Assembly (NCBI GenBank): GCA_020975725.1
Contig: QXJR01000003.1
Location: 372,001-436,000, forward strand
Source of the DNA: Picocystis sp. L7
Taxonomy: Eukaryota > Chlorophyta > Picocystophyceae > Picocystales > Picocystaceae
DNA length: 64,000 nt
Direction: 5' to 3'
Part shown: in pieces, positions 2,785 through 49,588 of the stretch
How positions within the stretch are numbered: the first letter of the stretch is position 1
Layout of the letters: each line of letters starts with the position of its first letter
Position numbers and translations under genes: made by a program
The notes under the pieces: model-generated
What the model was told of the DNA's origin: nothing
Seen by the model: the letters and a program-made list of their open reading frames with translations, nothing else
The model's database searches: none

Positions 2785-3058
2785 TCAAATGGCCATGAGG
2801 TCGCCGAAGTTTCGCATGAAGAACACGGATCCGGCGAAGAGAGCCAGACTACGTACGAAAACCTGCGAGTCGGAGGAGGGCAGAGTCCAGCCAGACGGTG
2901 TCAGCAGGCATTCTTTTCGAGCGATCAGCCATCGCCGAAGGCCCGCTCTGCTCGCGGAGGTTCGTCGGACACGTCGGCCTCACCATGTTCATCTTGCGGT
3001 TGTCGGCGTTTCCGAACTCGGTTTGGAAGAACTCCTTGAGCTTCGCCGCGGTGGCCAT
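2785..3058 (-). CDS. TOM6: Tom6-like subunit of the mitochondrial TOM complex, two exons
   Basis: Tom6 is a small tail-anchored protein that stabilises the outer-membrane TOM import pore. Exon 1 is 3058-2984 (25 codons) and exon 2 is 2862-2785; together they encode 50 residues. The join is in phase 0. The 121-base intron starts GTGAGG, has CTGAC at 2904-2900 and ends CGCAG. The N-terminal half is polar and charged (KLKEFFQTEFGNADNRKM). The C-terminal half is one hydrophobic segment, SLALFAGSVFFMRNFGDLM, which I compare from memory with the LFAAGVWLARNLSDI stretch of human TOMM6; length and topology also fit. The exon 1 frame is open upstream to 3256, so a longer start is possible, but the ATG at 3058 gives the family length. 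It is divergent from ALG1. No other family fits as well, yet the protein is short, so the name is an inference. Confidence 0.72.
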
Positions 3059-3452
3059 CCCTTCGCACGCCTTGCGTCCTCTCGTATTTTCTGTCGCCGC
3101 CTCGATCGCACCTTTCGTGCCACTCGCTTTCCCTTTGCTTTTGCTTTTCTTCCTGGATCGTTGTTCCTCCAACGGAGGCAGTCCACCTGCCGGCGCCGTG
3201 GCGTCTGGTCCTTCAACTGTAGAACGCACTCCCGTTTCTGTCCTGGTGGATCTCACGAACAGGTACGTCTACCCTAGACCGGCACAACACGTGTGGGCAG
3301 GTCTGTGCTTGGGTTCCACCTGGGTTCGTTTCCCTTTCCCACCCCGATGAAACCCGTTTTCCATCGATGGGCACGTTCCTCACTCCCGAGAAGTCGCCTT
3401 GCCCTCTACCCACGAGGGCGAGAGGAGGGGTGAATGAGGACAACCCGATGGA
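3059..3452. promoter_or_regulatory. shared upstream region of TOM6-like and ALG1 genes
   Basis: About 390 bases separate two diverging start codons. No TATA box is obvious. The stretch contains pyrimidine-rich CCCTTTC-type sequence near 3335 and two splice-donor-like sites, GTACGT on the plus strand near 3262 and GTGCGT on the minus strand near 3225. Neither has a CTGAC partner, so no untranslated intron can be supported. Confidence 0.4.
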
Positions 3453-6938: not shown

Positions 6939-7461
6939 CTCGACGTCTTTCGAATTCCTTGGCTGGTTCCCCGCGTTCCGAACGAATCCACGACGAAGAC
7001 GTGTCCGTGTCCGTGTTCGTTCGTGTTCGTTCGTTCGAGGTTGTGGTTGTGGTTGGAGACGGATCGATCGATCCCCTCCCCCTTCTCGACCACCCACCCA
7101 AGGGACCCGGATCGGGTCCGACCCCCATCCTCCCCCTTTTACGAAGGGGGAACCGTCCCTTGGAAGCGACCATCCAACCCCGGGGGAGCGATCCCGTACG
7201 TGGAGAGGGGAAGGTTCCGATCGGAGGAGATCGAGGCAAAACACCCCAAGGGGACATGGACCGGTCCAATGACACCCAAGGAGGGCCAGAAGACACCGAT
7301 GGAGGAGGAAGGGAACGCATGAGATTACGCCGTCGAAACGAACCAAGAGAGAAGCGGGAGAGTCCGATGCAGAGCCTACCGGAGGGCAGAGGAAAAACGA
7401 GCGACGATCGAACAAGGAAGCATCGATCCATTCCACGCATGCGCCCCGCGTTCGTGTCCAG
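6939..7461. promoter_or_regulatory. upstream region of PSMA6 and 3' flank of the zinc transporter
   Basis: No gene is seen. The stretch is rich in GGGATCGATCGATCC-like palindromes near 7060-7080 and in CCTTTTACGAAGGGGG near 7135, a variant of the CCCTTTCG element found upstream of many genes in this window. The long minus frame through it is open only because the DNA is GC-rich. Confidence 0.4.
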
Positions 7462-8841
7462 CTACTGATTGTGGTTGTCGATCTGGATGGTCGTGTGGCT
7501 CAGACCCCATTTGCTCTGACAAACCTGCTGGACGCCATCCAACACCAGGTTTGGATCCGCTCCTTCCATCACGTCCAAGTGGGTGGACATCAAAGGACGA
7601 CCCAACGTCAGGGACCACACGTGGAGATCATGGACGCTCTTCACGCCGGGGATGGAGACAATGTCCTGGCCGAGCTCTTCCATGTTGATGTGACGTGGCA
7701 CCCTCTCCATGAGCACATCAAAGATATCCCTCGTGATGTTCTTGGTGGTGAGCACGACCAGGATGGAGAACAGAAAGGTGCAAATCGGATCGAGAACGAC
7801 CCAGTGCGGTTTCCACCAAATCAAAGCACCCGCAACCGCAACCCCCACACTCTGCACCAGGTCGCCGAGCACGTGAATGGCCGCTCCTCTCAGGTTCATG
7901 TTCTGGCTCTTTGGTGATGTACCATCCGTGCGCAAGATCTCGCTGGCACTCAGCAAAGGCTGGGTCAGCGATGTCGCCTCCTGTGCGTCCTCCGTTGGGT
8001 CCAACCCCGCCGGATCGCGATGCGTCGGTTCCGCAAGATCCCCCTCCTGCGGGGATCCTCCCTCGGGGGTTCCGTGGGAGTGGCCGTGGCCGCCCTCTAC
8101 ATCCTGCGCACGAGCTTCCGTTCGTTCTGGGGGAGGATGGTGATGCGATCCATGGCTGTGTCCGTGTCCCGTTCTGGAGGTCGACGGGTGGATGTGTCCT
8201 TCGGTCCATTCGGGCGGGGGTGCGGCGTTGCCGTGGCTGTGTCCGTGCAGATGGCCCATATCCGATCCTCCGCAGCCGTGTAGGATGATCGCCATCGTGA
8301 TGTTGACCCCGACCCCGCAGCAGGCAATCACGAACATGACAAAGCCGTTGACTTCGTGCGGTTCGATCAGGCGACGCACGGCTTCGATGACCAGTCCGGC
8401 GGTGACGATCCACACGAGGACGACAGAGAAGAGGGCTCCGATGATTTCCGCTCGATGGTATCCGTACGAGTGATGGTCGCTCGACCGCAGTGAGGTGGCC
8501 CAAAGCGCGGCGAGTGCGATGAGGAAGCTTGCCACGTCGGACATGAGGTGCGCCGCGTCGGTGAGGATGGCCAAGCTTCTCGCGTAGATTCCTCCCGCCA
8601 CCTCGACCACCATGAAGACGAGGCAGAACACCGTGACGGCGACCAATCGATGCAGGATCTGCGTCGACGGGCGTTCAAGCGATGGACAGGTGCGTGTCAG
8701 CCACGTTCCTTCGTGTTCGTGCATGTACTGCTTCCATCGCTTCGTTCCGCCAGGCATCGCGCCTTGTTGCCGGAGCGGGCACCGATCGTCTGGCAAAGGG
8801 TTGGTGGACGCGAAGCTTCGTCTTCTGGTTTCTTCCTGCAT
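7462..8841 (-). CDS. zinc transporter, cation diffusion facilitator (MTP/ZnT)
   Basis: CDF proteins are proton-coupled exporters that move Zn2+ out of the cytosol into vacuole, Golgi or secretory vesicles. The 459-residue frame has six predicted membrane helices. The HxxxD zinc site DAAHLMSD lies in helix 2 (about residue 92), and the matching HVLGD is in helix 5 (about residue 322). Between helices 4 and 5 (about residues 190-267) is a histidine-rich loop with repeats such as HLHGHSHG and GHGHSHG, typical of the SLC30A2/3/8 and plant MTP1 group and thought to sense or feed zinc. The C-terminal domain contains HDLHVWSLT, a family marker. It is intronless. Substrate Zn2+ is inferred from the loop and the H/D sites. 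It is divergent from the FSP1-like gene. Confidence 0.95.
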   Translation of the reverse strand: MQEETRRRSFASTNPLPDDRCPLRQQGAMPGGTKRWKQYMHEHEGTWLTRTCPSLERPSTQILHRLVAVTVFCLVFMVVEVAGGIYARSLAILTDAAHLMSDVASFLIALAALWATSLRSSDHHSYGYHRAEIIGALFSVVLVWIVTAGLVIEAVRRLIEPHEVNGFVMFVIACCGVGVNITMAIILHGCGGSDMGHLHGHSHGNAAPPPEWTEGHIHPSTSRTGHGHSHGSHHHPPPERTEARAQDVEGGHGHSHGTPEGGSPQEGDLAEPTHRDPAGLDPTEDAQEATSLTQPLLSASEILRTDGTSPKSQNMNLRGAAIHVLGDLVQSVGVAVAGALIWWKPHWVVLDPICTFLFSILVVLTTKNITRDIFDVLMERVPRHINMEELGQDIVSIPGVKSVHDLHVWSLTLGRPLMSTHLDVMEGADPNLVLDGVQQVCQSKWGLSHTTIQIDNHNQ

Positions 8842-9326
8842 CGTCTCGTACGTCCTCTCATCGACGCACCTGGTTGTGCTCGTGGTCTTGTTTTTTTTCG
8901 GGTTCGACTCCCGTGTCCCAATCTTTCCCTTGTGCGTGGTAACACCTCAGTCCCAGCTCGGGTGCCGAGCACTGCGGTGCGACCACTCTCCTGGATCCGT
9001 TGTGGTTCCCTTCCCTCGTTTGGTTCCGGATCTCCAACGCGTCCTCCATGGTGTCTCTCCCTCGCGAACAGGGACGATAGTGTCGGACGACCGAAGGTGG
9101 GATACGTCCAACTCCGTCCTTCTCCCCTTGGTCCCCCAAGGAGGATCGGACGGGAATTCGATCGTAGATCCCGGACAGCAAGGAACCTTCAAAGGGAAGG
9201 GGTGGGGGGGGGGGAAACGAAGGTGCCCCACCACCCAGACGAAATGGGAACACGAGTCGTGTCCGAAAGGACACGAGCGAAGAACACGTGACGGGTGGCG
9301 CTGCACCGCGCACCCATCGAAGCCAC
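8842..9326. promoter_or_regulatory. divergent promoter region with an 11-base G run
   Basis: This 485-base stretch separates the zinc transporter and the FSP1-like gene. It holds a plus-strand G run of 11 near 9205-9215 preceded by GGGGT, which could form a G-quadruplex, and CAAAGGGAAGG next to it. No gene is visible; the flanking long frames are shadows. Confidence 0.4.
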
Positions 9327-10679: not shown

Positions 10680-13600
10680 TGGAGATGTTGACGGTTGTGT
10701 GGGTGTAAGAATCTATCCACTCTCTGGTCATTGGTAACTTGTTGGAAGCTACCAGCTCGAACCTGTGCTATCCTTTCTCTGTGTTGCATTTGTATCGCTG
10801 CATCGACCTTCTTGGAGATGTGCAACAGAAATGCTTCGATGTTGCACGGCTTGGAATCGATGAATAGGATGGATAAAGGGATGCAGTCCGTGTCCTTGTT
10901 TTTGGAGCTTATGTCTGAATGTGTATGATAGCCATCGTCGTAAACAACATTTCTTCGTACGTTTTGGTGGCAGTGTACTTTTGAATTGCATGTGTTTTCT
11001 AGCTTGCCATCTTGTTGTTTCGTCGCTCATGGCGCGTGGATGACTGCTGCACACATTTTGGAGTCAAATATTTCAATGCCGTTTCATCATTGTGGACAGT
11101 GAACAGACGTCCAAACAACAGATGTTGCCAATGCACTAAAGCGTAGACAATCGCGCAGGTTTGGCGCTCGGCGGCGTGGTTACTGCGCTGAGCGGAATCG
11201 AACTTGCGACTCCAGTGATTGATGGGTCGCCGCTCAACTGGGGCGACTTCCTGTTGTAGTACAGTCTCCTCGCCATTATTTGATGCGCCGGCATCAATTC
11301 AACTGGGGAGATCTTCATCAAATAGTACCAGTGCTGAGGCATTGAAAAGACTTGTCACCAGCTCCTCAACAGCTTCATCGTGTTGTTTTATCCTTTTGCG
11401 CAGGAAGTCGCGAGCATTTGTCTTCTTGTTCAATTCTGTAACTACTGCTGCGACGCCTGAGTAGTGCGGCACAACTATAAGCTCGCTCAAAGAGAGGCCT
11501 AGCAAAGCCATGTTTTCTTTCCGTATCCTTGGCTTGGGAAAGTGTTGAACCTTGTTGAGTGTGGTAGGCGAGCAACGAAGCTCCTGGTTGTTCGATCCCG
11601 AGCCTAACCCAGCCCAAAGGTGTACAAGGAAAACGACGCATCGACACTTTCAGCGCACATGTGTAATTCTACACGTCTAGAAGAAAACTTCTAGGTAGTG
11701 GAATTGGAATTATTTACTGCTTCGGTGAACCAGGACCTCATCCACGTAGACAGTAGCAAGTGGAAGGTGGCCAGAGATCCTATTCCTCTTCCTTTGGAAT
11801 GTTGCAAGTGCGTTGGCGATTCCCGTGGACACAACTGTTCATGTGCAACTACCGAAGGGGTCAACTCCACTATTCTACGACTATGTTTAAGAATTATGGG
11901 CAAGTGGTGGAACCCATCCAATACCTCCGTTGTAGAGAATTAGTCAGATCCACCGTAACCGTACCGAAAATCATTGATGCTTGGCAGGGGTATCAATCAT
12001 TGATCGCAAGGTTGCCCAAATCGGGATAATCGAACACCACAAACCAAACCCCGTCTTTGGGAACGATGACGACTGGTGCCCCAGGGCAGAGCTAGCATAC
12101 ACATCCTTGTTTCTTGCATTCATATACTTTGCCAAGAGTTTCCATGACTCTTCCCGTTCCAAAGATGAGAGTCGGAAGTATTACGCAAGCTACGGCAAAC
12201 TTCGAGGTTCCACGGGGATCCTAGATTTTTCATCAGCAACCCGTTCATGCAAGGTTGCGTAGGAGGCTTGAAGTAGTCCTTGTACTTTTCAAGTAACCCT
12301 TCCAGTCTCTATTGATCCCTTTCGGACAACGCTGCTAGTGCACTCAATTGGCACCGCTTTTACGAAAGTTCCTACCCCTTAGCTTCCGGCTCCCGACGTC
12401 AATCTTGTGATTTTACTATGAGATACAAGCCGTCTGGTATGCGCATGGCTTGCCTGATTTCGACGGGAAGGAGAGTCAAGTCAAGTCATCGTGCCTAGAT
12501 GAAGTTGCCAAGTCCTTGAAGTATGTGGCGACGTGAGGTGTGATCCTCTAGGCCATCATTTTTTGTGCCAATTGAGCACCCATGTATATGCTTTGAGAAT
12601 CACTTCCGGGAATGCACTCAATCTCTTACACTTGTGAAACGCCGAACTCATGACATACATGCAAGCTATCCATACTTTTCTAGAGGCTTTCGAATGGTGG
12701 CTTGTCGGTCTTGTTGCCGTTGTAGCTCCAAGTTCCACATAATCATCCGAGATTTTGCGTGAGGTACCATCATTGTCGGCTGTTTGATGCTTTTTAACAA
12801 CGGGGCATATCAAATGAAAAGCTGGGAAGAGTGTCAAAATAGTCTCGATTGTTAACTAATAATGGTCTTCGACCAAACAAGCATCGTGTGGAGAGGGATT
12901 TTTTCTTGGGGTAAGGTCATTGGTTGCTTGCAAGGGTCGAATTTGACCACGAGAGAGATTATGAACGGCCTACATATGTAAAGCGTGTAAGTCCATTCAA
13001 GTGGAGCCTCGATCCTCCAAAGGGTATTGCTCAAGGTTTGTGAGAGCATTTGATAACGCTCTCGGGTCCACGCGGCTTGTCCCCATCAATCGCTCGAGGG
13101 TTTTCACTTTTCTGTTCCGAACCCTGGAGGGATCCCCAACCCTTGATGTTACATCCCTACTTGTAATAGGCATTGCACACTACCAACTCAACACATCGCT
13201 TGAAGAGCTCGATAGGTAGCTTGGTATTTAGCGCATTTGTCTGCAAGTCTTCTTGGAGGGCGTGTATGATTTTCATGTCCTCCTCCAAGTCGTGGAACTG
13301 TTTCGACAAACGCTGTTGCTAGAGTAAGGGTTGGCCTTGAGGGCTACTCACCAGAGTGGCATTGAGCACCCTTGACACGAAGTTGCTTAGGACTTGTTCG
13401 CTTGCGTTGGGTGACGAGGTATGTTTTGCTCGATCTCTACTATTGCTCCAACCAACGCCCATGGAATAAAGTCGGCAACCTTTTAGAGACCAACTAGCAA
13501 CTCATGCTTCTCGCGGAGTTGCGACTTCAACTTCTTAGATAACCCTACACCCAATCGGGGTGCAAGCTCCTTGCCCGATATGCGTTACATTGTTGGATCA

Positions 13601-16600
13601 TTCCCCTTGCGAATCACGATTAAAAGCGATAGCAATCTATTAAGTACAACACGGCGTTTGTGAAGACGTTGCCAATTCAAACAATTTCGGGTCACCCAGA
13701 GGACGACACGTTGAGGAGAAAGGCAGGGCCATTCTAAAGCGTCAGCCACGTGGGACGACTTCCACTGCCTTGATCGAGGCTTGGCACTACTTGCAAGTCG
13801 CGGCAAGCTCGTGCTTGGAGGAGGGACATTGTTGAGATGATGCCTTGTCGAAAATCTACGTTCAATTCATGTGAGGGGTCCTCCAAAAAGCCCAAAGCAA
13901 GCGGTGTTTCATGTGGATCTCTTATCTTGAAAGGGCGCCTAGATGCCTCGTGCCCTTGTTGCCCTGTTTGGACGGTTGTACGACATGCATGCACGTGACC
14001 TAGACGTCGAGATTCCTCCCCAACGATCAAACTTGGGAAATTTGCGTGGATTTGTTCGAAAATGCATCAACGGTGTAGTCGTTCACATCCTCTCCTTGCT
14101 CCATTATAATATTGTCGAAGGCTTTGGTAAGGTGGTTCAATTGAGATTGCGACAATTCTTGTAAATGCCTTCCAACTTGTCCCAAACTTGCTTTGTTGTC
14201 TTGCAATGCTTGAGAACGCCTTGGTGCCGGCTTGACACCCTAATGAGTATCCGGGACCGGGCTCTCCGGACCGTTTTGGCCATTACTTGGCTTTCTGTGG
14301 TTAGGTTACCGTTTTCACCCATTGCATAGGATGGTTCGACCTCCACGCATTCATAGAGATCCCAAATCTTAAGGCAATGCATCATCTTGAATGACCATGA
14401 TGGGCAATTGGTGGGATTGAGTTGTGGCACTTACTTTGTATCGAGGTTTTCAACGGTGGATTCGGCAGCCATTACCTCTCTCTTTTCGTCTTTTTTTCTT
14501 TTTTTGAGGATGTCCCTAAACTAGATGAACGGTTCGAACCGAATGGATTTAGCCAACAAATCCATTGGACGAGCGATTTCATGGCAGGAGCTTCTTGAGT
14601 ATGAGCAGATATATAAACTCATGCATTTGAAGTATCAAATGTCGCATGAGTGCGACACAAGGTGAGCATGGTGTAAACTGTTCTTTTCGGAGCCGTCGTC
14701 TCTCCATAAAGGTTTGAGTTTCCTCTTTATTGGACAAGAAACTCCCCCAGAGGGTTCCATGGACCAAGGTTTCTCAAAAGAATTCGGCCCCTTTTTGCCG
14801 GGGTCTTCACGGTTTGTCCACGATTGAGCCTCGAAACAACGGGGATCGCTCCGAGGCTATCTTGCCGTTGGTGTTCGTGGCAGTCCTTGGCATCCCATGC
14901 CGAGTATGAGATAAAGGGTTGTTCATCAACAACCTCCCCAAATCGACAAATCGCGCCCGCCTAGTTGGGCAGGTGAACTATTCTTACAACAGCTACTTCA
15001 TCTAGCGATTCATTTCAAGCTCCGAGCCCGCTCGCTCTAAGCCAGTGTTTTACACCGCGGTCGTAGAACGCCGCGCCCCATCAAGGGGGGGGGGCTACTC
15101 TATGCGACCTAAGAATGCGGACTGCTGTCACATCCTTGCAAATACGACTTGTGAGGGCTCGCCGGACACTTTTAGAATGGGTCGCATCGTTAAGAGATGC
15201 CCAAGAGTGCACTACAGATAGAATCACTTATGCGCAACTGTCAAGGGCAATTTGCTTCCTAGATTTCCATGGCGAGTTCCACTCCGCGTCTGAGCGTTTG
15301 AAGGGCCATTGCGGCTTCCACCGGTTCCTTGGCTCTTTTCATCTTTACCCAACAAGAAACTTCCTTGCACTACCAAGGCAATGCACAGGTATCTTCCGAC
15401 TAGTAATTGAAGGGGTGGCCATACTAATTCCTTTGATGGTCCTTGACTTGCACGAGGCATTGAAGATGTTGCTAGATTTAGGGGAACGTATTTTGTTACT
15501 TCCTCGGGAGTTAATCGATGGTTCGTTAACTCCTCTTCCGGCTCCTTTATCTATTCCTTGAACGTCTCTATTGGGGTCGATTCGTCCAGTGATGCTTTGG
15601 CCATCACAGCTGATGGGTTCATAAACTCTGCTATGGTTAGTGCATGGTGCCGCGTGGCACTTGGCCGTTCAACACTCCAAGTCGATGGCATTCAACTTGT
15701 GAGAAAACAAGGGCGTGAAGTTCAATGGATTGGAATATCGAAGCGTGCTTGGAAGCAAAGATGAGAAAAATTCCTTTGTAAATAAAAGGTCAATTGAGAG
15801 GTCCTAGGGAGGCCTCGCGTGGGGCGGGGTCTTACGAGGCCTTATCCGACCCGATTGTCGGCTCGCCATGATCTCTTAGCGATTACAATGCACCATCTAG
15901 CGAGGGAGCACGGGCGATCCGAGTGTTCAAGATGACTGGGGCATTCCTGAACATCCGATTCCTAATGAGGGTTGACTTTTGAAGATTTTGTCCCTCGAGT
16001 GGAGAACCCGATCATGTGGGGGCCACCAACGAGCAAATTGGTCCCCCACGTCTAGTGCCTTGGATCGGTGTTGAGCCAAGCATCGCTTGAGGGAAACCTT
16101 GCCCCGGCCTCTCTTATTCATGTGGGTAGTACTATTGCGATCAAAATCGCAACGGTACCTTATTGTAAGGGAACGCCCCCATCCCAACCATCCAATATGT
16201 TGCGTCCTAGGGGTTTTGCGGACGGGGTTCACTTGCTCAAAGAGCAAACGGCGCTTCTAGTGGGTTGTTGAGCACGTCGGAGAGGCGGAGGAGGGAGTCT
16301 AGGCGTCGAATAGGACAAGTGATAAGTGAAAATCAAAGCAAAGAGGGACCATCGGTCTACCTCTCTCTCACAACCACTTATTCGCGGTTGGAGTTCGGGG
16401 CAGTTGAGGAGACAAGGCAGCCCACGTGGTGATGAAAGTTGCATCCGACCGTCCATATAAATCTCAATGGGGCGACCTTGAGCTGTCAGTTGTATTGGGA
16501 CCGTCAAGTCCCCCTTGTCCTACCTTCTAGATGTACACAAAGTCTGTTAAGGTCATACAGATCGAACTGTTTCAATGAGGGGGACCTCTTATCCCTTACT

Positions 16601-17021
16601 AAGAACTGACCTTAGTCGGGGTGGATTTCTTCAGTCGCAGTCCGTAGCGGGTTCAAAGTTCCAACCCTGAACCTGTATCGATTGTGTGGTGAGAAGGGGC
16701 CCATTAAGGGTCCTGTATAGTCCAAGTCTCGGGGGCCTCGTCCTGGAGATCACAGTCTCGTAGGGCCCCAAGCACGTTAACAATCGAAGCAAGCAATTCC
16801 GAGACGTGGGCCCTAAATAGGGCAACCCAATCAATAAGGGTTGATAGAAGCTTCTCGAAAGGGGGTCTTGGAATATGATTCCCTTACAGCGTGTGCTTGC
16901 TTTGACAACTCTTGTTTCTGGGTCGCAAACAAATTCCTCATGGGAGAAATCGGCCTCCTACTGTACAACGAGGGTCCACGGACTCAACAAGCATTGTCTT
17001 TATTTCACCCAACCAATGCAA
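10680..17021. other. 6.3 kb gene-poor island with transposon remains
   Basis: No intact host gene is recognised. The island looks less GC-rich than its flanks and has many short frames on both strands. The one piece I can place is a Ty1/Copia gag fossil on the minus strand (separate entry). Two overlapping minus frames at 11136-11511 read like a protein fragment (for example RKRIKQHDEAVEELV) but match no family known to me. A G run lies near 15087. Most of the rest is probably eroded transposon sequence; this is inference from texture and context. Confidence 0.5.
13585..14430 (-). mobile_element. LTR retrotransposon fossil, Ty1/Copia family, gag part
   Basis: The frame at 14430-14137 matches the N-terminal gag (UBN2-like) of Copia elements: the opening LNPTNCPSWSFKM, the central block KTVRRARSRILIRVS, and the helix ending KTTKQVWDKLEGIYK are in the family's order and spacing. 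Weaker gag-like sequence continues to about 13585 on the same strand. No integrase, reverse transcriptase or RNase H could be identified, and no long terminal repeats were found by eye, so the ends are unknown. The copy is fragmentary and broken several times, so it is probably old. Confidence 0.6.
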
Positions 17022-27400: not shown

Positions 27401-28088
27401 GATTCTCATTGCGAGCGTGGATCTGGGGTGCAGCGAGGAGGTCTTGACCATTGTGGCCATGCTTTCGGCGCAGAACATCTTTTTTCGCCCCAGAGATAAG
27501 CAAGCTGAGGCAGATCAGAAGCATGCACGGTTTTTCCAGCCGGAAGGAGACCACCTGACGTTGCTTGCGGTCTACACTGCGTGGAAGAACAACAAGTTCA
27601 GCAATCCATGGTGTCACGAGAATTTCATTCATGCAAGAAGCATGCGGCGGGCTCAGGATGTCAGGACACAGCTTGTATCCATCATGGACCGTTACAAGCT
27701 AGACCTCGTGAGCTGTGGGAGGAATCTGAACAAAGCGCGCATGGCCATTTGTTCGGGGTATTTCATGTTCTCGGCTAGGAAAGACCCGCAAGAGGGCTAC
27801 AAGACACTCGCAGAACAGCAGGTCGTATACATACACCCTTCCTCTTGTTTGTTTCAGAAGCAGCCTGATTGGATCATCTACCACGAGCTTGTATTTACAA
27901 CGAAAGAATACATGAGAGAGGTCCTCGCCATCGAGCCCAAATGGTTGGTGGAACTGGCCCCCCGCTTTTTCAAAGTTTCTGACCCCAATCAACTTTCTCG
28001 GAGAAAACGCAAGGAGAAGATCGTGCCTCTGTTTGACAGATATGCTCAGGACCAGAATGCGTGGAGGCTGTCGAAGCGACGCGGCTGA
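24466..28088 (+). CDS. DHX8: DEAH-box splicing helicase PRP22/DHX8, two exons
   Basis: PRP22/DHX8 releases spliced mRNA from the spliceosome and proofreads exon ligation. Exon 1 is 24466-24523 (19 codons plus one base) and exon 2 is 24658-28088, giving 1162 residues (yeast Prp22 is 1145). The 134-base intron starts GTGCGT, has CTGAC at 24576-24580 and ends TCGTAG. The join restores the conserved N-terminal helix, LNRVQKVAE followed by [17 protein letters not shown]. An S1 RNA-binding domain lies near residues 210-285, [10 protein letters not shown] near 532, DEAHERT near 628, then [11 protein letters not shown] and QRSGRAGR, with the OB-fold end. A helicase whose own mRNA needs splicing fits a genome with few but real introns. 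AATAAA follows 15 bases after the stop. Confidence 0.95.
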
Positions 28089-28171: not shown

Positions 28172-29201
28172 CTACGACCTGGAACGAAGCACCCTCCGCT
28201 GCCTCTTGTCACCAACCGCGAGTGACTCGACCGGCATGTCCGACCGCAATTTCTCGAGTTCTGATTTCCGGCCCTTCTTTGCAGGGACAGTCCCGTTGAG
28301 GAGGTCGTTCTTCGTTTCGTCGCACCCTGCGGAGCAAAGACTGCGGCCCTCGTTATACTTCAACAGGCGAGCCTGCACAAAATGGGCCACAGAAGGGAAG
28401 CCTCGCTTCTGTGCTTCAAAAATTGCTATCCCAGTGGGTGCAAGTCCTCTGCGAGTCATGCAGATGGAACTGTTGCAAATCCAGCCATCCTCTGGGAACT
28501 CCTCCTCATGACAGTGGGGACACAGCCAGTCCGGGTTGTTGCGGACATCCTCTAGTTCCAGGCCGTACCGGATCAGTAGGCAGGCACGGCAGAATCGGCC
28601 CGTGGCGGAGTGACAACGGCTGCATTCGCTCTTTCCGATGCATTCCTTGGCATCATCTCTTTCTTCGCACCTGGGACAGCCGATTTCTCCACAGAGCTTC
28701 TTTTGCCTGCAGAAGTGGCAACAGATGCCCACTTTTTGGTCGTACACGGATCCTCTACCCTTACTATCGCATCTTCGCGCGAGCAGTTCAGAAACGTTTC
28801 CGCCTCCTTCGACGCTCGGCAGCACGATCCTTCCGGTTTCAAATATGGGTTCCTCTTTGACACCTTCGTATTCCGGTGTGGTTCCCTTGAGCCTATGGGA
28901 GGACCGGAGCTGCACCGGTTCCCGTTTCTCTTCGACCTTCCTTTTCTCCCGTCTGACGAGTGGCTTTCTGATCCTCGCCGACACTTCCAGCAGCGTCTTT
29001 TGCTTCATGACGCCCAGTTGCGCTGCTCGTGGACCGCATCAGGTTCGGTTCGTGGGTTGCTTTCCGGTCAGCCTTTCGAGCGCCATCTCTTCGTTCCCCT
29101 TGGTTGGTTCCATCCTTTTTCGACGCACCCAATCGGTTCCTGTTCGTTTCGATTCGCTTCCGTCTCTCCTCTTCGAACTGGAGCGCTTCCATGGCTCCCA
29201 T
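28172..29201 (-). CDS. CDCA7: CDCA7-family zinc-finger protein (zf-4CXXC_R1), two exons
   Basis: CDCA7 activates the HELLS/DDM1 nucleosome remodeller and is linked to maintenance of DNA methylation. Exon 1 is 29201-29129 and exon 2 is 29022-28172, giving 307 residues. The 106-base intron starts GTGCGT, has CTGAC at 29071-29067 and ends GAGCAG. The join yields ERRKRIETNRNRLAQLGVM, the conserved N-terminal helix. Residues about 120-218 form the cysteine-rich domain: CCHFCRQKK, CPRCEERDD, CSRCHSATGRFCRACLLIRYG, NPDWLCPHC, and RRGLAPTGIAIFEAQ. The last part also has the GFPSV motif of the family. The C-terminus is basic (KRQRRVLRSRS), as for a nuclear protein. ATGs at 29201 and 29192 are both possible. 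Confidence 0.9.
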
Positions 29202-30563: not shown

Positions 30564-31083
30564 ATGGGAGAGTCCAAAACGTGCACCGTCCGCACGCGCA
30601 AGTTCATGACGAATCGCCTGCTGCAGCGGCGGCAGTTCGTCGTGGACGTTCTGCACCCAGGACGCCCGAACGTTTCCAAGGTGCGCTCAGGAGACGGAAG
30701 CGAACGCGCAGACACGACGAAGGTGGAAGAACGACAGACGACCGAACGGGCGCTGACCGAGACCTCCTTGGTCGATCCGACGGATGCGCCCGAAACCGCA
30801 GTCCGAACTGCAAGAAAAGCTTGGCAAGATGTACAACGTGAGCGACGCGAAGGCCATCATCCTTTTCGGTTTCCGCACCCAATTCGGCGGAGGTAGGAGC
30901 ACGGGTTTCGGACTCATCTACGACAGTGTGGAGGCCGCGAAGAAGTTCGAGCCCAAGTACCGTCTAGTGAGGTTTGGACTGGCAGAAAAGGTGACCACGT
31001 CACGCAAGCAAATCAAGGAACGTAAGAACCGCGCCAAGAAGCTGCGTGGCAAGAAGAAGGCTGCCGTCACCTCCAAGAAGTAA
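30564..31083 (+). CDS. RPS24: 40S ribosomal protein eS24, two exons
   Basis: eS24 is a 40S ribosomal subunit protein. Exon 1 is 30564-30680 (39 codons) and exon 2 is 30802-31083, giving 132 residues (human has 133). The 121-base intron starts GTGCGC, has CTGAC at 30753-30757 and ends CCGCAG; the join is phase 0 after VSK. Family signatures are [17 protein letters not shown] in exon 1 and [17 protein letters not shown] in exon 2, with the lysine-rich tail [15 protein letters not shown]. The long plus frame through the intron is incidental. The converging FLU gene ends 390 bases downstream. Confidence 0.97.
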
Positions 31084-35614: not shown

Positions 35615-38600
35615 ATGGTGGAACCGCTCGCTGCTGCGCTGGTGCAGACGCTCTCTCCGGATGCGGTGCGTGGAACGAGGAGCAGAGACCGACGCGTGGA
35701 AAGGAAAGGAAAGCGTGGAGCGAAAGAAAAGGACGATGGGATCGAGGAAAAGGAAAGAGGACGAGAACGCACCCAGGAGAACGTGCTGCCCAAGAAAGAG
35801 AGGTCCAACCGATGCGTTTTGGAGGACAAGACGAGGGGAAGAAACGTGCTGACGTGCGAGACACGATGCGTGGGAAACGCACGACGATCGACCGTGCGAA
35901 CGCAGGGTCCGCGGAAGCAAGCCGAGAGCTTTCTCAAGGAAGCAGCCAAACAGCCAGGATACGGCAGCTCCATCCTACAGGTACGCGTCCCAACTCACCT
36001 GGAAACTTCATCCAGACGAGGAGAAGGAGGCCAAACCGAAGAGACGGAGGGGAAACGGATCCTCACGAAGCGAGGAGTATCCTCGCCAGACCGACGAACG
36101 TCGCTGACCGATGCCGAACGTCCTCCAACGAACACGTGCACGTAGCTGGTGGCGTCGGAACAAGTGGACCCGCAAGTGAGGCAATCGGCAGCTGTGAACT
36201 TCAAGAACCACGTGAAGAAACACTGGGATGCGTCGCGAGCGCAGGGAATCTCCGAGGCACCGGTGGAGATCGGGGATGCGGAAAAGGAACAGATCAAGAC
36301 GGCCATCACCTCGCTCGTGCTCCACGCGCCGCAAGCCATACAAGTGCAGCTCAGCGAAGCCCTCGCCATCATCAGCGAGACGGACTTTCCTACCAAGTGG
36401 CCGACCCTGCTTCCAGAACTCTCCTCCAAGCTGGGATCGGGGGATTACCGCATCATCCAAGGAGCACTGCACACCGCCAACAGCATCTTTAGGAGGTACA
36501 GGAGGAAGATGGAAATGGATCAGGAAGAGGCCAACGAATTGAAATATGTCCTCGATACCTTTGCTGTTCCGTTGACTGAACTGATGACGGTAACCACCGC
36601 AAGTATTCAACAGACGAACGATGTTGCCGCGCTCAAGCAGATGTTGAGCTGCGTGAGGCTGATATGCAGGATGTTCTACTCGTTGAACTATCACGTGCTT
36701 CCGGAGGTCTTCGAGGATCGCATGAACGAATGGTTTTCGCACTTCCAATTCTTCTTGGGGTACAACAACCCAGCCCTGAACGAGAGCGATCCAGAAAAAG
36801 AAAGCTGCATCGATGGCGTGAAGAGTGCCATATGTGAGAACATCAACCTGTACATCGAGAAGAACGAAGAAGAATTTGAGCCCTTCTTGCCCCAGTTTGC
36901 CTCAAGCGTGTGGAGCCTACTTGCAGGGGCCAGCCAAGCCCCCGGGCAAGACCACCTCGTGGCTAGCGCCATGCGATTCCTGACGACCGTAGCGAAGAGC
37001 ATTCACCACAAATTGTTTGCAGACCCGCAGGTCCTGAAGCAGGTGATCGAAGGCATTGTGATTCCGAATCTACAGGTCCGAGAAGAAGACGAGGAACTTT
37101 TTGACATGAACTGGGTGGAATATGTGAGGAGAGACATGGAAGGTAGCGACAGTGACACCCGCCGTCGCATGGCTTGTGAACTGGTGAAGGGACTCATGCA
37201 ACACTATCCTAGCGAGGTGACGAACCTGTGCAGCACCTACGTATCGGCAATGCTGGAAGAAGGGGCCAGGGACCCTGCCAAAAATTGGAAGTCAAAGGAT
37301 TGTGCGGTCTACTTGGTAGTGGCTCTTACAGTGAAAGGTCAGACAGCCGCTCATGGCGCGACCCAGACAAACGAATTGGTGGGCATCGTCGATTTTTTTA
37401 CAAGCAGTGTTCTGCCGGAGCTCGAGTCTGTGCACCTGAACACCCTTCCAGTTTTGAAGGCAGATTCTTTGAAATTTGCTACCACGTTCAGGTCCCAGCT
37501 TCCCGTGGAGCTTCTAATGAAAGCGCTTCCTTTCGTCGTGAAGTTGTTGGGTGCTGAATCAAACGTGGTGCACAGCTACGCCGCAATCTGCATTGAAAGG
37601 ATGCTGGTGATGAAGGAGAATGGCAAGCCCAGGATCCCCCCTCACGAACTAGTCTCGTACATGCAGCCCCTTCTTACAGCTCTTTTCCAAGCATTGGATC
37701 TGCCCGAATCTGCGGAGAACGAGTATGTCGTCAAGTGCATCATGCGCACGATTTCTTTTGCAGGCACGAGTTTGGGTGGCCTTCCGGGTGATGTTGTACA
37801 GTTTAGTTTGAATAAGCTTGGCGCTAGGCTGGCTGAAGTTGCGAAGAACCCCCGGCAGCCCACGTTCAACCACTACCTTTTTGAGTGCATTTCGGCAATC
37901 GTCAGATTCGGGAGCACGTCTGACAGTAGCATAGTAGCATCTTGCGAGAACGTGCTGTTCCCGATTTTTCAAGGCATCCTGGAACAGGACGTAGCAGAGT
38001 TCACCCCGTATGTCTTTCAACTGTTGAGCCAGTTGGCGGAGGTACGCCAGCCCCCCCTCCCAGCAGCTTACAGTGCCATATTTCCTGCCCTCTTGGCCCC
38101 TGTATTCTGGGAGCAACCGGCCAACGTTCCCGCCTTGGTCCGCTTGTTGCAGGCCTACCTAGAGAAATCATCAGAAGAGATCGTCCAAAGCAGCAAGCTG
38201 GAGGGCGTGCTAGGTGTGTTCCAGAAGCTTATTGCATCGAGGTCGCACGACCACGAAGGCTTCTTCATCTTGAACACGTTGGTGGAGTTCCTGCCTCTCA
38301 ACTCTTTCAGCAAGTACCTCCAGACGATTTGGAGCTTACTCTGTCAACGTTTGATGGCCTCCAGAACGGCCAAGTATGCACGCAGTTTCGTTGTGTTTTG
38401 CTGCATGTTCATTTGCAAGCATGGAACCGAGGCCATGGCGGAGAGCTTGGACAGCGTGCAATCGGGCCTCTTCTTGAATATCCTTCAGGGGGTGTTCGTG
38501 CAAGACGCGGAGAAAATAAGCGGGAAGGAGGAGGAGAAGGTGTGCGTCGTCGCATTTACGAAGGTCCTCTGTGAATGGACCGGCCTCCACCCGCCTCAAA

Positions 38601-38920
38601 TGGCTTCTCTGTGGACTTCCCTGCTTTCGGCAGCGGTCACCTTGATAGAAAGACCAGAGGTACAGGCGGCAGGCGAGGAGGAGCTGGAGTTTGAAGAAAT
38701 GGGTTACACAGCAGCCTTTGCACCCTTGCACAATGTAGGAAAGAGAGAAAAGGATCCCGTGCCCGAGGTGTCGGACGTGACGGCGTACTTGGCCCAGTCG
38801 TTGGGTAGACTTTGCAACTCACATCCAGGACAGTTCATGCCTCGAGTCCAACAAATGGCCGAGTTGCAACAGCGGGCCTTGTTGGGTTACTGCTCCGCCC
38901 AAGGTGTGCAGCTGCGTTGA
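35615..38920 (+). CDS. CSE1: exportin-2 (Cse1/CAS), three exons
   Basis: CSE1 returns importin-alpha from nucleus to cytoplasm with RanGTP. Exons are 35615-35665, 35906-35980 and 36146-38920, giving 966 residues (yeast 960, human 971). Introns are 240 and 165 bases, start GTGCGT and GTACGC, have CTGAC at 35849-35853 and 36105-36109, and end CGCAG and CGTAG; both are phase 0. The joined N-terminus reads LSPDAGPRKQAESFLKEA then SSILQLVASEQ and QSAAVNFKNHVKKHW, the importin-beta N-terminal region. The rest shows HEAT repeats with Cse1 features such as QLSEALAIISETDFPTKWP and ANSIFRRYRR. The 3' end converges with the nucleotide-sugar transporter, 32 bases between stops. Confidence 0.95.
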
Positions 38921-40170: not shown

Positions 40171-40562
40171 GCTCGCCCACGTAAGCCTTCAAACGTCCAT
40201 GCGACCTCCCTTCGCTCCCTGGACGCGCGTGCGACCCCTCCCTCGTTGGCGCACGCGTCGTGCGTCGACGTACGAGTCGCAATGGGAAAGGCGGTCCATG
40301 GCCACGTGGGATGGACCAACCAGAGGGGATGGTGGTGGTGTGGACGGGACAGTCCAACACCCATGCACAACAGATCCTGGCCACTCCCGTTCAAGCATCA
40401 GGAGGGCAGGTGATGGAAGAGAGAAGAGGAGGGGGTAACAATGCACGGGATGGATTGCACGCACCGAACCACCGATTGGAGCCACCACGGACGGGAAAGG
40501 AAGGATCGAGAACGTACATGAATCCCTCACACCCCCCCCCAAAAAGGGCGCGTCCCACCAAC
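40171..40562. promoter_or_regulatory. upstream of the transporter, 3' flank of SEC61A
   Basis: These 392 bases hold no visible gene. A C run lies near 40531-40541 close to the SEC61A stop. Confidence 0.4.
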
Positions 40563-42507
40563 TCAAAACATGCCCATCTCCGCCGCACGCTCCTTGTCGA
40601 AGGTCTCGAAGTACTGGTAGATGATGGTCACCGCCAAAAGGATCCCCGTGCCCGAGCCGATGGCGCCCATGAAATCGGCCAGGACCGTCAAGGCACCGAT
40701 GCACATCCCCCCGAAAGCCGCCGCGGTGGGAATGTAACGGTTCAACTCCTTGGTCAGGGAGGATTCCCGATGACCGAGCATGAACATCTGCTGGTCTCGG
40801 AGCTGCTTGGCCACGTCCTTGGCAGACGTGCCAGAAACCTCGATCCACGTCTTCGAGAACAACGCGCAAGCCGTAAGCACAAACGCGATGTAGATGAAGG
40901 CGTGGAGGGGGTTCAGTGCGATGTCTTCCAGGGAGGTGGGAGGAGAGATGTAGTAGACCATGCCTCCCACCGGAATCAGCTGCTGGCTGTACTCGTTCTG
41001 CTGCCAACGGCCCAACAGCTGGACGAGGAGGTTCCCCTTGTACCTCTTCCACAGGAGCTGAGAAATGAAGTACAGGTTGGACACCAACGCCGAGTGTAGG
41101 ATGATGGGCATGTTGGAGGTGTAGAACAGCTTGATGGGATACATCCCTTGCTGACCGCGGGTCCTCTTGGAACGGACCGGGAGGTCCACGCGGAAGCCTT
41201 GGAAGTAGATGACGATCAGGAAGACCACCACGGTCGCCAAGAGGTTGGTGATGTTGGGAAGGTTCTGCCTGTAGAACGCCTCCTTGAGCGCCCGCAGCTT
41301 GTCGTTGCGGGTGATCAACAGGTGAAACAAGGCGATGATGGCGCCTTCGAACTCAATCCCCCTTCCGGTGTTAATGGTGGTGGGACTGAAGGCCTTCCAG
41401 ATGATGTTCTCGCAGATGTTGGTGGCAATGAAGAGAGAGATGCCCGAGCCCAGGCCGTACCCCTTCTGCAAGAGTTCGTCCAAGCAGATGACGATGATGC
41501 CGGCCATGACGAGCTGCAGCACGATCAGTCCGGCATTGAGCGGACCTGGGGAAACCCACGCGAAGACGGGGTCAGCCTTCGGTTACGCGACGCTTCCTGG
41601 ACCTTTTCCGGAGGCAATTCCCATCCCGTTCGTCGCGCACCTAGATCTTTGACGTCTCCGTACATTCCGGAGACCACGTAGGCCACCGCTTCACCGAGGG
41701 TGATGAGGACCCCCAGCAGCTTCTGGGCTCCTTCCCTGCGTCGTCCGTTCGTCGTCCCACCAGGTGGCACGGTGGGTCAGCGGGTGTCCTGGAGCCACGG
41801 CGCGTCTCCCGTCGAATCGGGACGCTCGGATGGGGCGATGCTTCGCCTTGGATTCGCATCCGTTTCACTGGCGTTCCTTGGTGCGAAGGGTCGATCCACG
41901 GCGTTCCATCGGTTCGGGGAACGCGTCCTTAATTCCTGTCCTTCGCGATCGGTGGTGGGTTGGACGTTCCATCCACGTCTTCCCGATCGTCTCCTTCCTT
42001 TCTCCACCGCGTCCACGTTTTTTTTTTGCTGCCTTCGATTCGCCGAACCCCCTTTTTGGTTTCGGATCCATCCCTTCGATTCTCGTTCGATCGCCTTTTG
42101 TTTCTTTCGTTTTACGTGCTTTCCTCGTGGGGTTTGGGTCTTGGTTCGCGTTCGTTCACGTACATGAGGTCTCGATCTTCTTTGACGCTGTTGTCGACTT
42201 CGATGATTTTGCTCCCTGCGAGCAGTTGGATGACCAGGGAGGAGGTGACGATGGGACTGATGCCCAGTTCCATGCACGTTCCACGGTTGGACGCCATGAT
42301 CACCCTGGCCCAGTAGAAGGGATCGGATCCTGCTTCTTTGTAGATCCCGTAGAGCGGCAGTTGGCTGCACACGAGGAACACGAAGAGTGCGACTGCCGTG
42401 TAGAGCATTTTCTCTCGGAACGGGACCCTGCGATCGGCACGTTGCACGTCTGGCAGCAGGGCCATGAACGGCTTGACGAGGTGCAGCACCCTGAATCCAC
42501 CGGACAT
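40563..42507 (-). CDS. SEC61A: Sec61 alpha, protein-conducting channel of the ER, three exons
   Basis: Sec61 alpha forms the translocon pore. Exons are 42507-42164, 41735-41641 and 41545-40563, totalling 473 residues, the usual family length. Introns are 428 and 95 bases, start GTACGT and GTGCGC, carry CTGAC at 41780-41776 and 41575-41571, and end CGCAG and CCCAG. The joins give [19 protein letters not shown] and [16 protein letters not shown], both matching the conserved sequence. Other landmarks are [22 protein letters not shown] early, [16 protein letters not shown], and [17 protein letters not shown] late. Ten membrane helices are expected. Very long minus frames running past the start to 44949 are compositional. 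Confidence 0.97.
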
Positions 42508-43184: not shown

Positions 43185-43727
43185 ATGCGCGCCAAGGTGG
43201 GTCCACGAAACACGCGAGACGGAAGGGATGTCGAGGACGGAAACGGAAGGAACGCGACGGTCCGGGATCGGACGGGGATCGATCGCGGAAAAGCACGAGA
43301 AAGAAAAGAAGAAAACCCTCGCCGCCGCCGCAACGTCGTGAGGGGTTGTTGGGAAAAAGCACGTGAACACCACCGCCGTCGAGGCGTGGCGCTTCGGATG
43401 GATTCGACGGAGAGACGGGAGCTGACGACACACTTTCCGACGTCGATCGATCCATCGATCCATCCATCCCACGCACGCAGTGGAAGAAGAAGAGAGTGAG
43501 ACGCTTGAAACGCAAGCGCAGGTGCGTCGAACCAACCCTCGAGGTCGAACGACGATCGAACGCGCGACGATCCATCCGCCTCCTCGCCGCGACGAGAACG
43601 TGCGGACGCGGGGACGAAGAGGCGATCGAACGCACGGCTGACGCGCGTTCCATCGACGGGTGCCGTCGCGGACGTTCGGGTTTCGGGTTTCGGTCCACGC
43701 AGAAAGATGCGCCAGCGCTCCAAGTGA
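43185..43727 (+). CDS. RPL41: 60S ribosomal protein eL41, 25 residues in three exons
   Basis: eL41 is the smallest ribosomal protein and bridges the two subunits. Exon 1, 43185-43196, encodes only MRAK. Exon 2, 43481-43521, encodes [13 protein letters not shown] and two bases of the next codon. Exon 3, 43703-43727, completes arginine and adds KMRQRSK and the stop. The product differs from the human protein, as I recall it, at two positions (K for R at 6, V for M at 10). Intron 1 (284 bases) starts GTGGGT, has CTGAC at 43422-43426 and ends CGCAG; intron 2 (181 bases) starts GTGCGT, has CTGAC at 43638-43642 and ends CGCAG. The gene is invisible to frame-length searches. Near-identity over all 25 residues with correct splice signals makes this call firm. 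Confidence 0.96.
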
Positions 43728-46564: not shown

Positions 46565-46589
46565 AGTACATTACAAAAATACTTGCACT

Positions 46590-49588
46590 TCACACATCCT
46601 CTTTTATCGCAGGTTTTGCCCTTGCCAGTGCCTGGTTTTCCAGCCGTAGGTTCTCCATCCCTGCTTCCAACCTCTTCGCATTCTCGGAAGTCTGCTCGGC
46701 TGCCGTGGCCAGCTCATGCAGCATGGTGGCCACTTCCGTCGAGTTGTTGAGCATATACCGCGCCTTCGATCGTTTACGTCCGACCGTGCAAGACCAGAAA
46801 CCGTCTTGTGCCAGTTTGATATACTTCGACCCTTCCCCTTCCATGGAAGCCTTTGCATGGCTTTCTTTCCATCCAGCCGGAGGCTTGACGTCTTGAGGCC
46901 CAAGGAAAGCCGTGGGCGTGGGAACTTCCTCGGGAATGGGGGACCAGTCGTGTGCACTGAGCGCCGCCGAGCTGCCAAGGGCACTAAGCCCCGTATTGCT
47001 GCCCATCTGATTCACGCTTGCCGTGCTTTCGATGTGAGGAAGGGCTTGAGAGCTCAGGCTGTGGGCGTCTCCCTCAAACATCTCCAGAAGGTCTTCCTCT
47101 GTGAGTTGCCCGCCGCGTTCGAAGTACGAAAAAATGTCCTCATCCCTTCCCATAAAATGTCCTGCGCACAAGATGAAGTCCACGCAGTCTGCCTCGCCCC
47201 CATCTTTGGCCATATACGCAAATATGCGCTCCATAGCCAACCCTTTCGAGATTCCCACCGGCCGCACCTCAACGGAACGCCCGCCTTGCACAATATCCAC
47301 AGCAGCATTGCTAATTGGGCCCGTCCACAAATGCTGTAGCATGTCCCTTGCCTGCAACCTTCCGAACTCGGGGTCCGCGTATTTGTAATTCCACACCATC
47401 GATGTCTCTCTACGATCCACGTACGACCTAGGGGTACGCTCGCAAAAGTAATCAAACACCAGCTGCACGCTCTCCATCCAGTCCATATTCGAGGCCTCAA
47501 TGGTCTCGATCCATTCATCTTCCTTGTCAGATTGCCCCTCCTGCCTGGGTGGACGCATGAAGCATCCGTTCTCCGCTGCAAGCCACACCGGAAGCTCACC
47601 GAACGCACTTGCAAGCTTGCTCTTCTCACTGCCGCTGAAAATACAAACGACGGTATTGGGATCGGAGCAGACCTTCCTTATACTGTCCTTCACTGTAGGG
47701 TGCACCCTGGTGAGGGAGCGAATCTGATCGTTCTGCCGCTTCTGTCGTCTGGGAGCCTCCGCGCTCGTGGTGAGTGTAGCGTTGTACCCAAGGATGAGAA
47801 CCTTCTTCTTGGAGCGCTTGTACCTTCTCACAAGCTTACCTAGAGGAAGCTGGGGAGGAATGTGCATGTTCCTCAGTTGTGCCTCGACATGCGTGTCGTT
47901 CAGTTCGCTCACAAAAGTATCTGCCCATACCTGCGCTGTGTGCGTCGTGACGTGCATATAGTTCTGACGTTGCCTGTCCTTGCGTTCAGATCCAGACATG
48001 GTCAAAGCATCCTCGATGTTGGCAGTGATGTCTATCACGTTGTGCGGATTTACAAGCAGCGCCCCGGCCCCCAAGGATTGTGCTGCCCCCGCAAACTCGC
48101 TGAGAATGAGCACTCCCGAGTTCTGCTTCTGGCATGCCACATATTCGTAGCTCACGAGGTTCATTCCATCTCTCAGGGAAGTGACAAGGCAAACATCGGT
48201 CACCGCGTACAGCGCAACGAGCTCGTGGAACTCCAGGCTGCGATCAAGGTGATGGATGGGCACGTGGGTCAAGGTACCAAACTTTCCGTTGATACGTCCA
48301 ACAATCTCGTGAACCAGGCTTCTGAGCTGTTGGTACTCTGGGACGTCCATCCTCGTGGGCACTGCAATCTGGACAAGGAGCACCTTGTCTTTCCATGATG
48401 GGTTCTCGTCCAGGAACTTTTCGTACGCCAGCAGTTTCTGGGGAATTCCCTTGATCATGTCCAGGCGATCCACTCCAAGCATGACCTTCCGTCCGGCGAA
48501 TCGTTTTCTCAGCTCCGCAATGTGAAACTTCACCTTCTCTGAATCCAGGGCCTGGGAAAATCGAGCGGGGTCGATCCCGATGGGAAAGGCGGCGATTCGT
48601 GTGATCTGTCCGCTGTCTTCCACGCCCTCGGGCGTTCCTTCCAGGCCGAGGATACGCGTGCACGCAGAGACAAAGTGCCGTGCGTAATCGTAGGTGTGAA
48701 ACCCGATCAGATCAGCGGAGAGCAGCCCTCGCAGGAGCTCCTCCCTCATGGGCAATGTCCTGTAGATCTCCGAGGACGGGAAGGGCGTGTGAATGAAGAA
48801 CCCCAGCTTCATGTCCGGACAGAGCTGCTTGAGCATTTGCGGGAGGAGCACGACGTGGTAGTCGTGGCACCACACGAGATCCCCGTCATCGTATTCTTCC
48901 ACCACCGCTTGAGCGAACCTTCGGTTTGCTTCTTGGTAGGCTGCCCATTGGGCTTGCATGGTTCTTGTTTCGGAGAGCCTTGCTTCCAGGGGCAGGGGCA
49001 CGTAATGGAAGAGCTGCCACAGCACTTGGTTGCAGTATCCGTTGTAGTAGAGGTCCACCGTTTTTTCGTCGAACCAGACGGGCACGTATCCTTCTTGTCT
49101 CAGCAGTTGATCCAATTCGTCTCGATCGGGTCCAGGTTCGAGGTGCATCCCCGGCCAACCGATCCATCGGGTGACGTAGGCGTGTTGCACGCCCATCATG
49201 GCGCTGACCAGTCCGCCGGAGCTGTTTTTCAGGGTCCATTTTCCATCTTCGTCTTTCGCTCCCGAGACGGGAAGTCGATTGGCTACGATGAGCAGCCTTT
49301 CTTCTCTCTTGGGCGACGCCGGCGCCTCTTCTTCCACGAACAGGTTCTGGCTGCTCCTGCTCCTCCTCAGTTGCCTTTCTCTCAGCAACCGATCTGCATC
49401 GTTCCGTTCGATCCGTGTCGTTTCGCTCGGTCAGTCCATCGTCCTTCCTTCTCCGTCCGGTTCCTTCCTTCGGGTCCCACGGACGCACCTACGCGCGAGG
49501 ATCCGGCCACGGCCGTGGCGCTTCCGGCCGCCACCGATCCTCCCACGGATCCGTTGTGCACTTCTGCGGAGCTGCTGGCGCGCGACAT
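46590..49588 (-). CDS. TPS1: trehalose-6-phosphate synthase, class I type, degenerate phosphatase domain, two exons
   Basis: The enzyme makes trehalose-6-phosphate from UDP-glucose and glucose-6-phosphate. Exon 1 is 49588-49489 and exon 2 is 49393-46590, giving 967 residues. The 95-base intron starts GTGCGT, has CTGAC at 49434-49430 and ends GATGCAG. Without it the frame has no ATG before the catalytic domain. The synthase domain (about 65-530) shows LLIVANRLPVS, GWPGMHLEPG, WCHDYHVVLLPQML, IHTPFPSSEIYRTLP, GVDRLDMIKGIPQKL and SLRDGMNLVSYEY. A phosphatase-like domain follows, but its expected DxDG catalytic motif reads ILGYNATLT near residue 566, as in plant TPS1, so it should not hydrolyse phosphate. 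The C-terminus has the VGRKRSKARYMLNNSTEV block of plant enzymes. Confidence 0.95.

Follow-up and report, generated by a model that had tools for sequence, protein, structure and literature searches.

Twelve introns with a uniform set of splice signals

The 64,000-nucleotide stretch of contig QXJR01000003.1 analyzed here (positions 372,001 to 436,000; the window) contains 12 mapped introns, spread over nine genes, that share a strikingly uniform set of splice signals: mostly a GTRCGY donor, always a CTGAC motif upstream of the acceptor, and between the two 3′ signals a pyrimidine-poor spacer that is almost free of AG. Judged from their sequence, these are U2-type nuclear introns, and we consider it very probable that they are the ordinary introns of an intron-poor, probably archaeplastid alga in which the remaining introns have converged on strict signals. 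By its motifs, this intron grammar is not new, since those published for Ostreococcus (2008) and Micromonas (2013) are nearly identical.

The intron density is low, with 12 introns per 25 recognized genes, 16 of which are intron-less; recognition here means a Pfam match at an E value of 0.01 or better, so that genes without a Pfam match are uncounted, and the frame scanning was partial, as not all frames of all stretches were searched with Pfam. The initial annotation, made from the letters of this DNA, had described uniform, strict signals typical of intron-poor genomes, and that description holds for the enlarged set. All 12 introns (95–428 nt) begin with GT and end with AG, the spliced proteins of all nine genes run without internal stops, and all but one of the 12 introns fall within the 5′ half of the coding sequence. 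No intron lacking CTGAC was found in the 5′ ends of 10 of the 16 recognized intron-less genes (three frames, by eye), a survey that could miss introns in untranslated regions, in the other six intron-less genes or in unrecognized genes.

The introns themselves are evident from protein conservation. Seven junctions are secure, having been placed by protein alignment with no splice motif except GT and AG: the two of Sec61 alpha, that of eS24, the two of RPL41, the second of CSE1 and that of PRP22. The three joined exons of Sec61 alpha align to Sec61 alpha chains over residues 6–470 with a gap at neither junction, and the two exons of eS24 give a gap-free alignment to eS24 chains over residues 4–127, with the junction at residue 39. 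The junction of CSE1 intron 2 (amino acid 42) is spanned by the alignment to chains named 'importin alpha re-exporter', and splicing of CSE1 raises its IBN_N match from 47.7 to 62.4 bits. Likewise, the junction in the spliced N-terminus of PRP22 is spanned by the alignment to DHX8 chains. This helicase is the sole spliceosome component recognized in the window; it is ordinary in appearance and its N-terminal domain is present. The reduced spliceosome that the initial annotation associated with such signals is, for this host, a conjecture. Finally, the clearest evidence for the splice signals within the window itself comes from RPL41, whose spliced 25-amino-acid protein matches PF05162 over positions 1–25, its full length. 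The two introns of this gene, 465 nt together, lie within 25 codons in a region that is otherwise intron-poor.

Protein support is weaker for the other five introns. The junction of CSE1 intron 1 (amino acid 17) lies at the edge of an alignment that begins at amino acid 16. Exon 1 of the ZnT-type gene is unaligned to any relative, so the donor is placed by frame and motif only, and because exon 1 of the trehalose-phosphate synthase/phosphatase (TPS) gene is not recognizably conserved, both ends of its intron are placed by frame and motif. For exon 1 of the CDCA7-like gene, similarity was judged by eye; the intron ends in two adjacent in-frame AGs, and the GAG 3 nt upstream is an alternative acceptor. 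The TOM-like gene is the smallest recognized (50 amino acids). It is TOM6-like by eye and its only Pfam match, to Deltameth_res, is under the family cut-off; a longer alternative of its intron, with a GTGCGT donor at 3229, is possible and would be compatible with the same grammar.

Branch site, acceptor and spacer

CTGAC is present in all 12 introns, including the seven secure ones, and the distance from its A to the intron end is 27–79 nt, with a median of 44 nt. The initial annotation had reported the motif about 25–80 bases before the acceptor in 11 of 11 introns, and the regularity holds for the 12 introns mapped here. G precedes the motif in 10 introns and A in two, while C follows it in seven. 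As background, CTGAC lies 18–90 nt upstream of 112 of the window's 2606 YAG sites (4.3%), which gives the excess a P value of 4e-17 for the 12 introns and 3e-10 for the secure seven. The motif was picked after the fact; no rival 5-mer is present in more than eight of the first 10 introns mapped.

The acceptors are CGCAG in seven introns, CGTAG in two, and CCCAG, AGCAG and TGCAG in one each, and CGYAG accordingly covers nine of the 12 introns and six of the secure seven. Between branch site and acceptor, the sequence is on average 51% pyrimidine, with a T content of 6–32% and a longest pyrimidine run of 2–9 nt, and no clear polypyrimidine tract lies there in the 12 introns. This bears out the earlier description of acceptors as mostly CGCAG or CGTAG without an evident pyrimidine tract. 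Since the spacer is pyrimidine-poor, the 3′ end is probably carried by the strict branch site, with use of the first AG downstream.

The spacer is also depleted in AG. Once the first 12 nt after the branch A are passed, the 12 introns contain one AG in 399 nt, where 33.4 would be expected at the rate found further upstream in these introns and 22.7 occur in shuffled spacers. The seven secure introns have no AG in 253 nt, compared with 18.6 and 13.2, respectively. The single AG belongs to the CDCA7-like intron, where it is part of the adjacent in-frame GAG. Of five control dinucleotides, four (GA, AC, CG and GT) reach or exceed their shuffled means in the spacers. Among the independent evidence for CTGAC as the branch site, the AG depletion is the strongest; the A of the motif is the branch nucleotide that we infer.

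Donor signal

The donor is GTGCGT in six introns, GTGCGC in two, and GTACGT, GTACGC, GTGAGG and GTGGGT in one each. GTRCGY therefore describes 10 of the 12 donors and six of the secure seven, so that the preponderance of this motif and of its C at +4, noted initially for eight of 11 introns, is kept in the larger set. Position by position, A is found at −2 in nine introns, G at −1 in 11 and AG before the donor in eight; within the intron, +5 is G without exception, +3 is G and +4 is C in 10 introns each, and 11 introns have T or C at +6. GTRCGY makes up 1.92% of all GT sites in the window, and the binomial P value of the excess is 4e-16 for 10 of 12 and 3e-10 for six of seven. With GTRCGY at 1.92% of GT sites and CTGAC at 4.3% of YAG sites, both signals are therefore far above chance, even with the seven secure introns. 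Much of the significance of GTRCGY, however, belongs to the consensus at +3, +5 and +6, because C is already the commonest base at +4 in the GTRNGY strings of the whole CG-rich window (141 of 418, 34%).

The specificity of the combined signals was measured by a strict scan, in which GTRCGY followed by CTGAC and the first YAG was sought on both strands. Of the 15 combinations returned, nine are mapped introns, two reuse mapped sites and four lie elsewhere without an exonic AG. The latter, at 7196, 10034 and 17696 (+) and 23087 (−), were rejected as they have neither an exonic AG nor a fitting gene model. The CDCA7-like intron, the tenth with GTRCGY, escaped the scan because GAG is its first AG.

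Comparison with published intron grammars

In Ostreococcus lucimarinus, introns outside chromosome 2 have the donor GTGCGTG and the branch motif GACTGACG, and ACTGAC occurs in 87% of 319 introns confirmed by expressed sequence tags (Irimia and Roy 2008, PMC2483917). These canonical introns share with those of the window the G+3 C+4 G+5 donor, the strict CTGAC core and their small number. The branch context differs, being GACTGACG in O. lucimarinus and mostly GCTGACC in the window, where A precedes CTGAC in two of 12 introns. In addition, the donors of the window vary more at +3 and +6, and the window has gene-poor blocks. In Micromonas (RCC299 and CCMP1545), the canonical introns have the donor AG|GTGCGT, with NCTGAC 43–52 nt upstream (Verhelst et al. 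2013, PMC3879977). The window is alike in its donor type (AG in eight of 12, exact GTGCGT in six of 12) and its NCTGAC branch motif, but the branch–acceptor distance of 27–79 nt is wider, and whereas Micromonas has introners, the 12 introns of the window are without introner-like copies. Given these published donor and branch motifs, the window therefore holds a known kind of intron grammar, and its introns may reflect either membership in the Mamiellophyceae or a convergent lineage such as a red alga. In a literature search for GTGCGT together with introns, the Micromonas paper was, by title, the only algal one; subscription papers were mostly outside the search, and other lineages are possible. 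The search term, matched as a whole word, misses the Ostreococcus paper, which prints the 7-mer.

Hemiascomycete yeast introns have the donor GUAUGU and the branch motif UACUAAC. They resemble the introns of the window in their strict signals after intron loss and in a base other than A at +4. However, the U+4 of yeast pairs with an adenosine of U6 (PMC10581693), whereas C+4 would not. As in the window, introns are few and the branch motif is invariant in the alga Cyanidioschyzon merolae (PMC2483917), but that motif is ACTAACC, in contrast to the CTGAC and C+4 of the window. In C. merolae, U1 has most likely been lost (PMC5880011) and the U6 box is altered (PMC10581693).

Proposed recognition of the signals

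In the mechanism that we propose, GURCGY would be recognized by U1 and then by U5 and U6, and the mismatch at +4 would be offset by the invariant G+5 and, in most introns, by the AG at the exon end. The near-invariant (G)CUGAC would pair with U2, leaving its A as the nucleotide at which branching occurs, and a site this strong would take the place of a polypyrimidine tract. The 3′ splice site would be the first AG past about 12 nt from the branch A, located by scanning, and such scanning would lead to the purging of AG from the spacer.

Several points weigh against this reading. First, five of the 12 introns (TOM-like, ZnT, TPS, CDCA7-like and CSE1 intron 1) were sited partly with the motifs in view. 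Second, when the donor in the scan is relaxed to GTR[ACG]G[CTG], 50 combinations are returned that include 11 mapped introns, and the specificity therefore depends on the strict donor. Third, C+4 is missing from two of the 12 donors, which have A or G there, and taken alone it is only moderately enriched over its 34% background (10 of 12, P = 6e-4; six of the secure seven, P = 7e-3), which speaks against the emphasis that the initial annotation placed on this base. CA is also somewhat scarce in the spacers (20 compared with 29.0 in the twelve and 15 compared with 18.5 in the seven). Regarding affinity, the branch context of the window departs from the 87% ACTGAC of Ostreococcus with P = 6e-8, on which ground Ostreococcus itself is rejected as the host, and the window's gene-poor blocks of several kilobases are unlike the compact genome of Bathycoccus. 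Finally, introns genome-wide could differ from these 12, as they do on chromosome 2 of Ostreococcus (PMC2483917).

Possible reading of C+4 by U1 and U6

In a pairing calculation against the canonical end of U1, C+4 costs about 4 kcal/mol relative to A+4. The earlier proposal that C+4 weakens pairing with U1 is supported to this extent by calculation. However, the ten C+4 donors score between −2.1 and −7.8 in the same calculation, and the yeast-type donor GUAUGU, at −6.8, lies within this range. As GUAUGU pairs with U1 about as poorly, U1 pairing alone implies no altered small nuclear RNA (snRNA), and pairing as weak as that of the C+4 donors would be workable. U6 is the informative partner for this position, and its ACAGA box faces donor +4 (PMC10581693, PMC11732430).

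The best-surviving alternative, which we nevertheless consider unlikely, is that C+4 mostly reflects base composition: in a CG-rich genome with a relaxed +4, for example through loss of U6 N6-methyladenosine (m6A) and METTL16, C would rise before the fixed G+5. This would fit with C as the top base at +4 of the GTRNGY strings in the window (34%), with donor positions +7 and +8, which are likewise mainly G or C (11 and nine of 12, respectively), and with yeasts without METTL16, in which +4 switches, there from A to U (PMC10581693). It fits poorly with C+4 in 10 of 12 donors where 34% is expected (P = 6e-4), and C+4 also belongs to the donor consensus that has been published for both Ostreococcus and Micromonas (PMC2483917, PMC3879977).

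Next in order, and improbable in our view, is a change of the host snRNAs to match the donor, either in the ACAGA box of U6, whose central A would have become G and pair with C+4, or in U1, with G at nucleotide 5. In C. merolae U6, the same adenosine is reported to have changed to uridine (PMC10581693), and the position is therefore able to evolve. By calculation, G at nucleotide 5 of U1 makes its pairing with the C+4 donors stronger by about 6 kcal/mol, and an altered snRNA would account for the selection of C specifically, beyond the mere avoidance of A. For O. lucimarinus, Irimia and Roy regarded matching snRNA changes as worth exploring and favored a single unchanged spliceosome (PMC2483917). 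Against such changes, Schizosaccharomyces pombe has C+4 in 514 of 5056 classed introns (PMC8163875), so that C+4 is workable with a normal U6; U1, U2, U5 and U6 of O. tauri are reported as annotated and expressed (PMC7671301); and two of the 12 donors in the window carry A or G at +4. Compensation by snRNA is thus possible but not required. The broader proposal, that the host with GURCGY donors, and perhaps all such algae, reads C+4 through a changed U6 (ACAGA to ACGGA) or U1 that possibly arose outside the Mamiellophyceae, is more doubtful still.

An Rfam search of the window found no snRNA family and nothing at the gathering score, with three weak microRNA matches far under their cut-offs, and ARAGORN found no tRNA in the window. 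Pattern scans for U6 in the viral contigs gave no match with variant cores or with the canonical core. The U6 pattern has one match in the genome contigs, a canonical ACAGAG U6 at 2292–2312 of L001, a contig titled as a Verrucomicrobiaceae metagenome-assembled genome; it is presumably a eukaryotic contaminant of that record and is uninformative for the host of the window.

Recently spread introner elements, whose signals would be common by descent, are a very improbable source of the uniformity. Introners of Micromonas do have similar donors, and in RCC299 the branch motif is GACTGACG (PMC3879977), but the introns of the window are 95–428 nt long with only short stretches of sequence in common. 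No second copy of any of the 12 was found in the window at an E value of 1e-3, and the best intron–intron E value is 0.002 over 27 nt. Minor (U12-type) introns, which strict donor and branch motifs might suggest, are close to ruled out, as none of the 12 introns has a U12 donor (ATATCCT or GTATCCT) or a CCTTRA-like branch site.

Host affinity and genome context

The window resembles nuclear DNA from a eukaryote with plastids. The best chain in the PDB for PSMA6 is 7qve_B, from spinach (343 bits, 63% identity); the next is 1iru_A (302 bits). eS24 scores 192 bits with plant-type chains and 171 bits with the next group, and a PAP_fibrillin gene is present in the window. By similarity, these three genes favor the Archaeplastida without separating red from green. 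In contrast to PSMA6 and eS24, the best chains for Sec61 alpha are named Sec61 alpha isoform 1 and are presumably mammalian. The TPT gene has no match in the PDB. Short-pattern scans with PSMA6 (viral contigs) and CSE1 (genome and viral contigs) found no relative, although distant ones could escape such scans.

The GC content in 2-kb segments is about 51–61% in gene-rich stretches and near 48% in gene-poor blocks. Three regions (1–2500, 10700–17000 and 57000–59700), near 48–52% GC and with no gene recognized, lie between gene-rich islands. The three plus-strand frames of 10700–17000 gave no Pfam match, and of the other two blocks only small edges were scanned; the gene-poor blocks might be decayed mobile elements. 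In all 10 coding regions checked (e.g. 36152–38920 and 53227–56862), the first 600 nt have a higher GC content at third codon positions than the last 600 nt. The palindrome GATCGATC occurs at 11 sites, or 22 counted on both strands, compared with 3.2 expected from dinucleotides; two of the sites are in RPL41 intron 1 and three are in coding regions. Coordinates are given in Table 1.

Table 1. Introns, selected genes and palindrome sites, in window coordinates
Feature	Position	Strand	Donor	CTGAC	Acceptor	Remarks
TOM-like gene, intron	2863–2983	−	GTGAGG	2904	CGCAG	weak homology
ZnT-type cation efflux gene, intron	8659–8869	−	GTGCGT	8700	CGCAG	
PRP22/DHX8 spliceosomal helicase gene	24466–28088	+				
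PRP22/DHX8, intron	24524–24657	+	GTGCGT	24576	CGTAG	
zf-4CXXC_R1 (CDCA7-like) gene, intron	29023–29128	−	GTGCGT	29071	AGCAG	
Ribosomal protein eS24, intron	30681–30801	+	GTGCGC	30753	CGCAG	
CSE1/CAS, intron 1	35666–35905	+	GTGCGT	35849	CGCAG	
CSE1/CAS, intron 2	35981–36145	+	GTACGC	36104	CGTAG	
Sec61 alpha, intron 1	41736–42163	−	GTACGT	41780	CGCAG	
Sec61 alpha, intron 2	41546–41640	−	GTGCGC	41575	CCCAG	
RPL41 gene	43185–43727	+				exons 43185–43196, 43481–43521, 43703–43727; 25 codons + stop
RPL41, intron 1	43197–43480	+	GTGGGT	43422	CGCAG	
RPL41, intron 2	43522–43702	+	GTGCGT	43638	CGCAG	
TPS gene, intron	49394–49488	−	GTGCGT	49434	TGCAG	near 5′ end
Palindrome GATCGATC	7062, 7066, 20912, 24707, 25118, 29434, 43277, 43445, 44338, 44342, 53286					

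Implications

How U6 and its methylation select splice sites is under current study, and donor position +4 is one focus of that work. A genome with mostly C+4 donors would be a natural test of whether the RNA has followed the splice site or C is simply tolerated. If U6 or U1 compensation were true, it would be a third way of reading +4, after m6A facing A+4 and the plain A:U+4 pair. At the other end of the intron, the AG-free, pyrimidine-poor spacer would provide a clean case of branch-to-AG scanning without a polypyrimidine tract.

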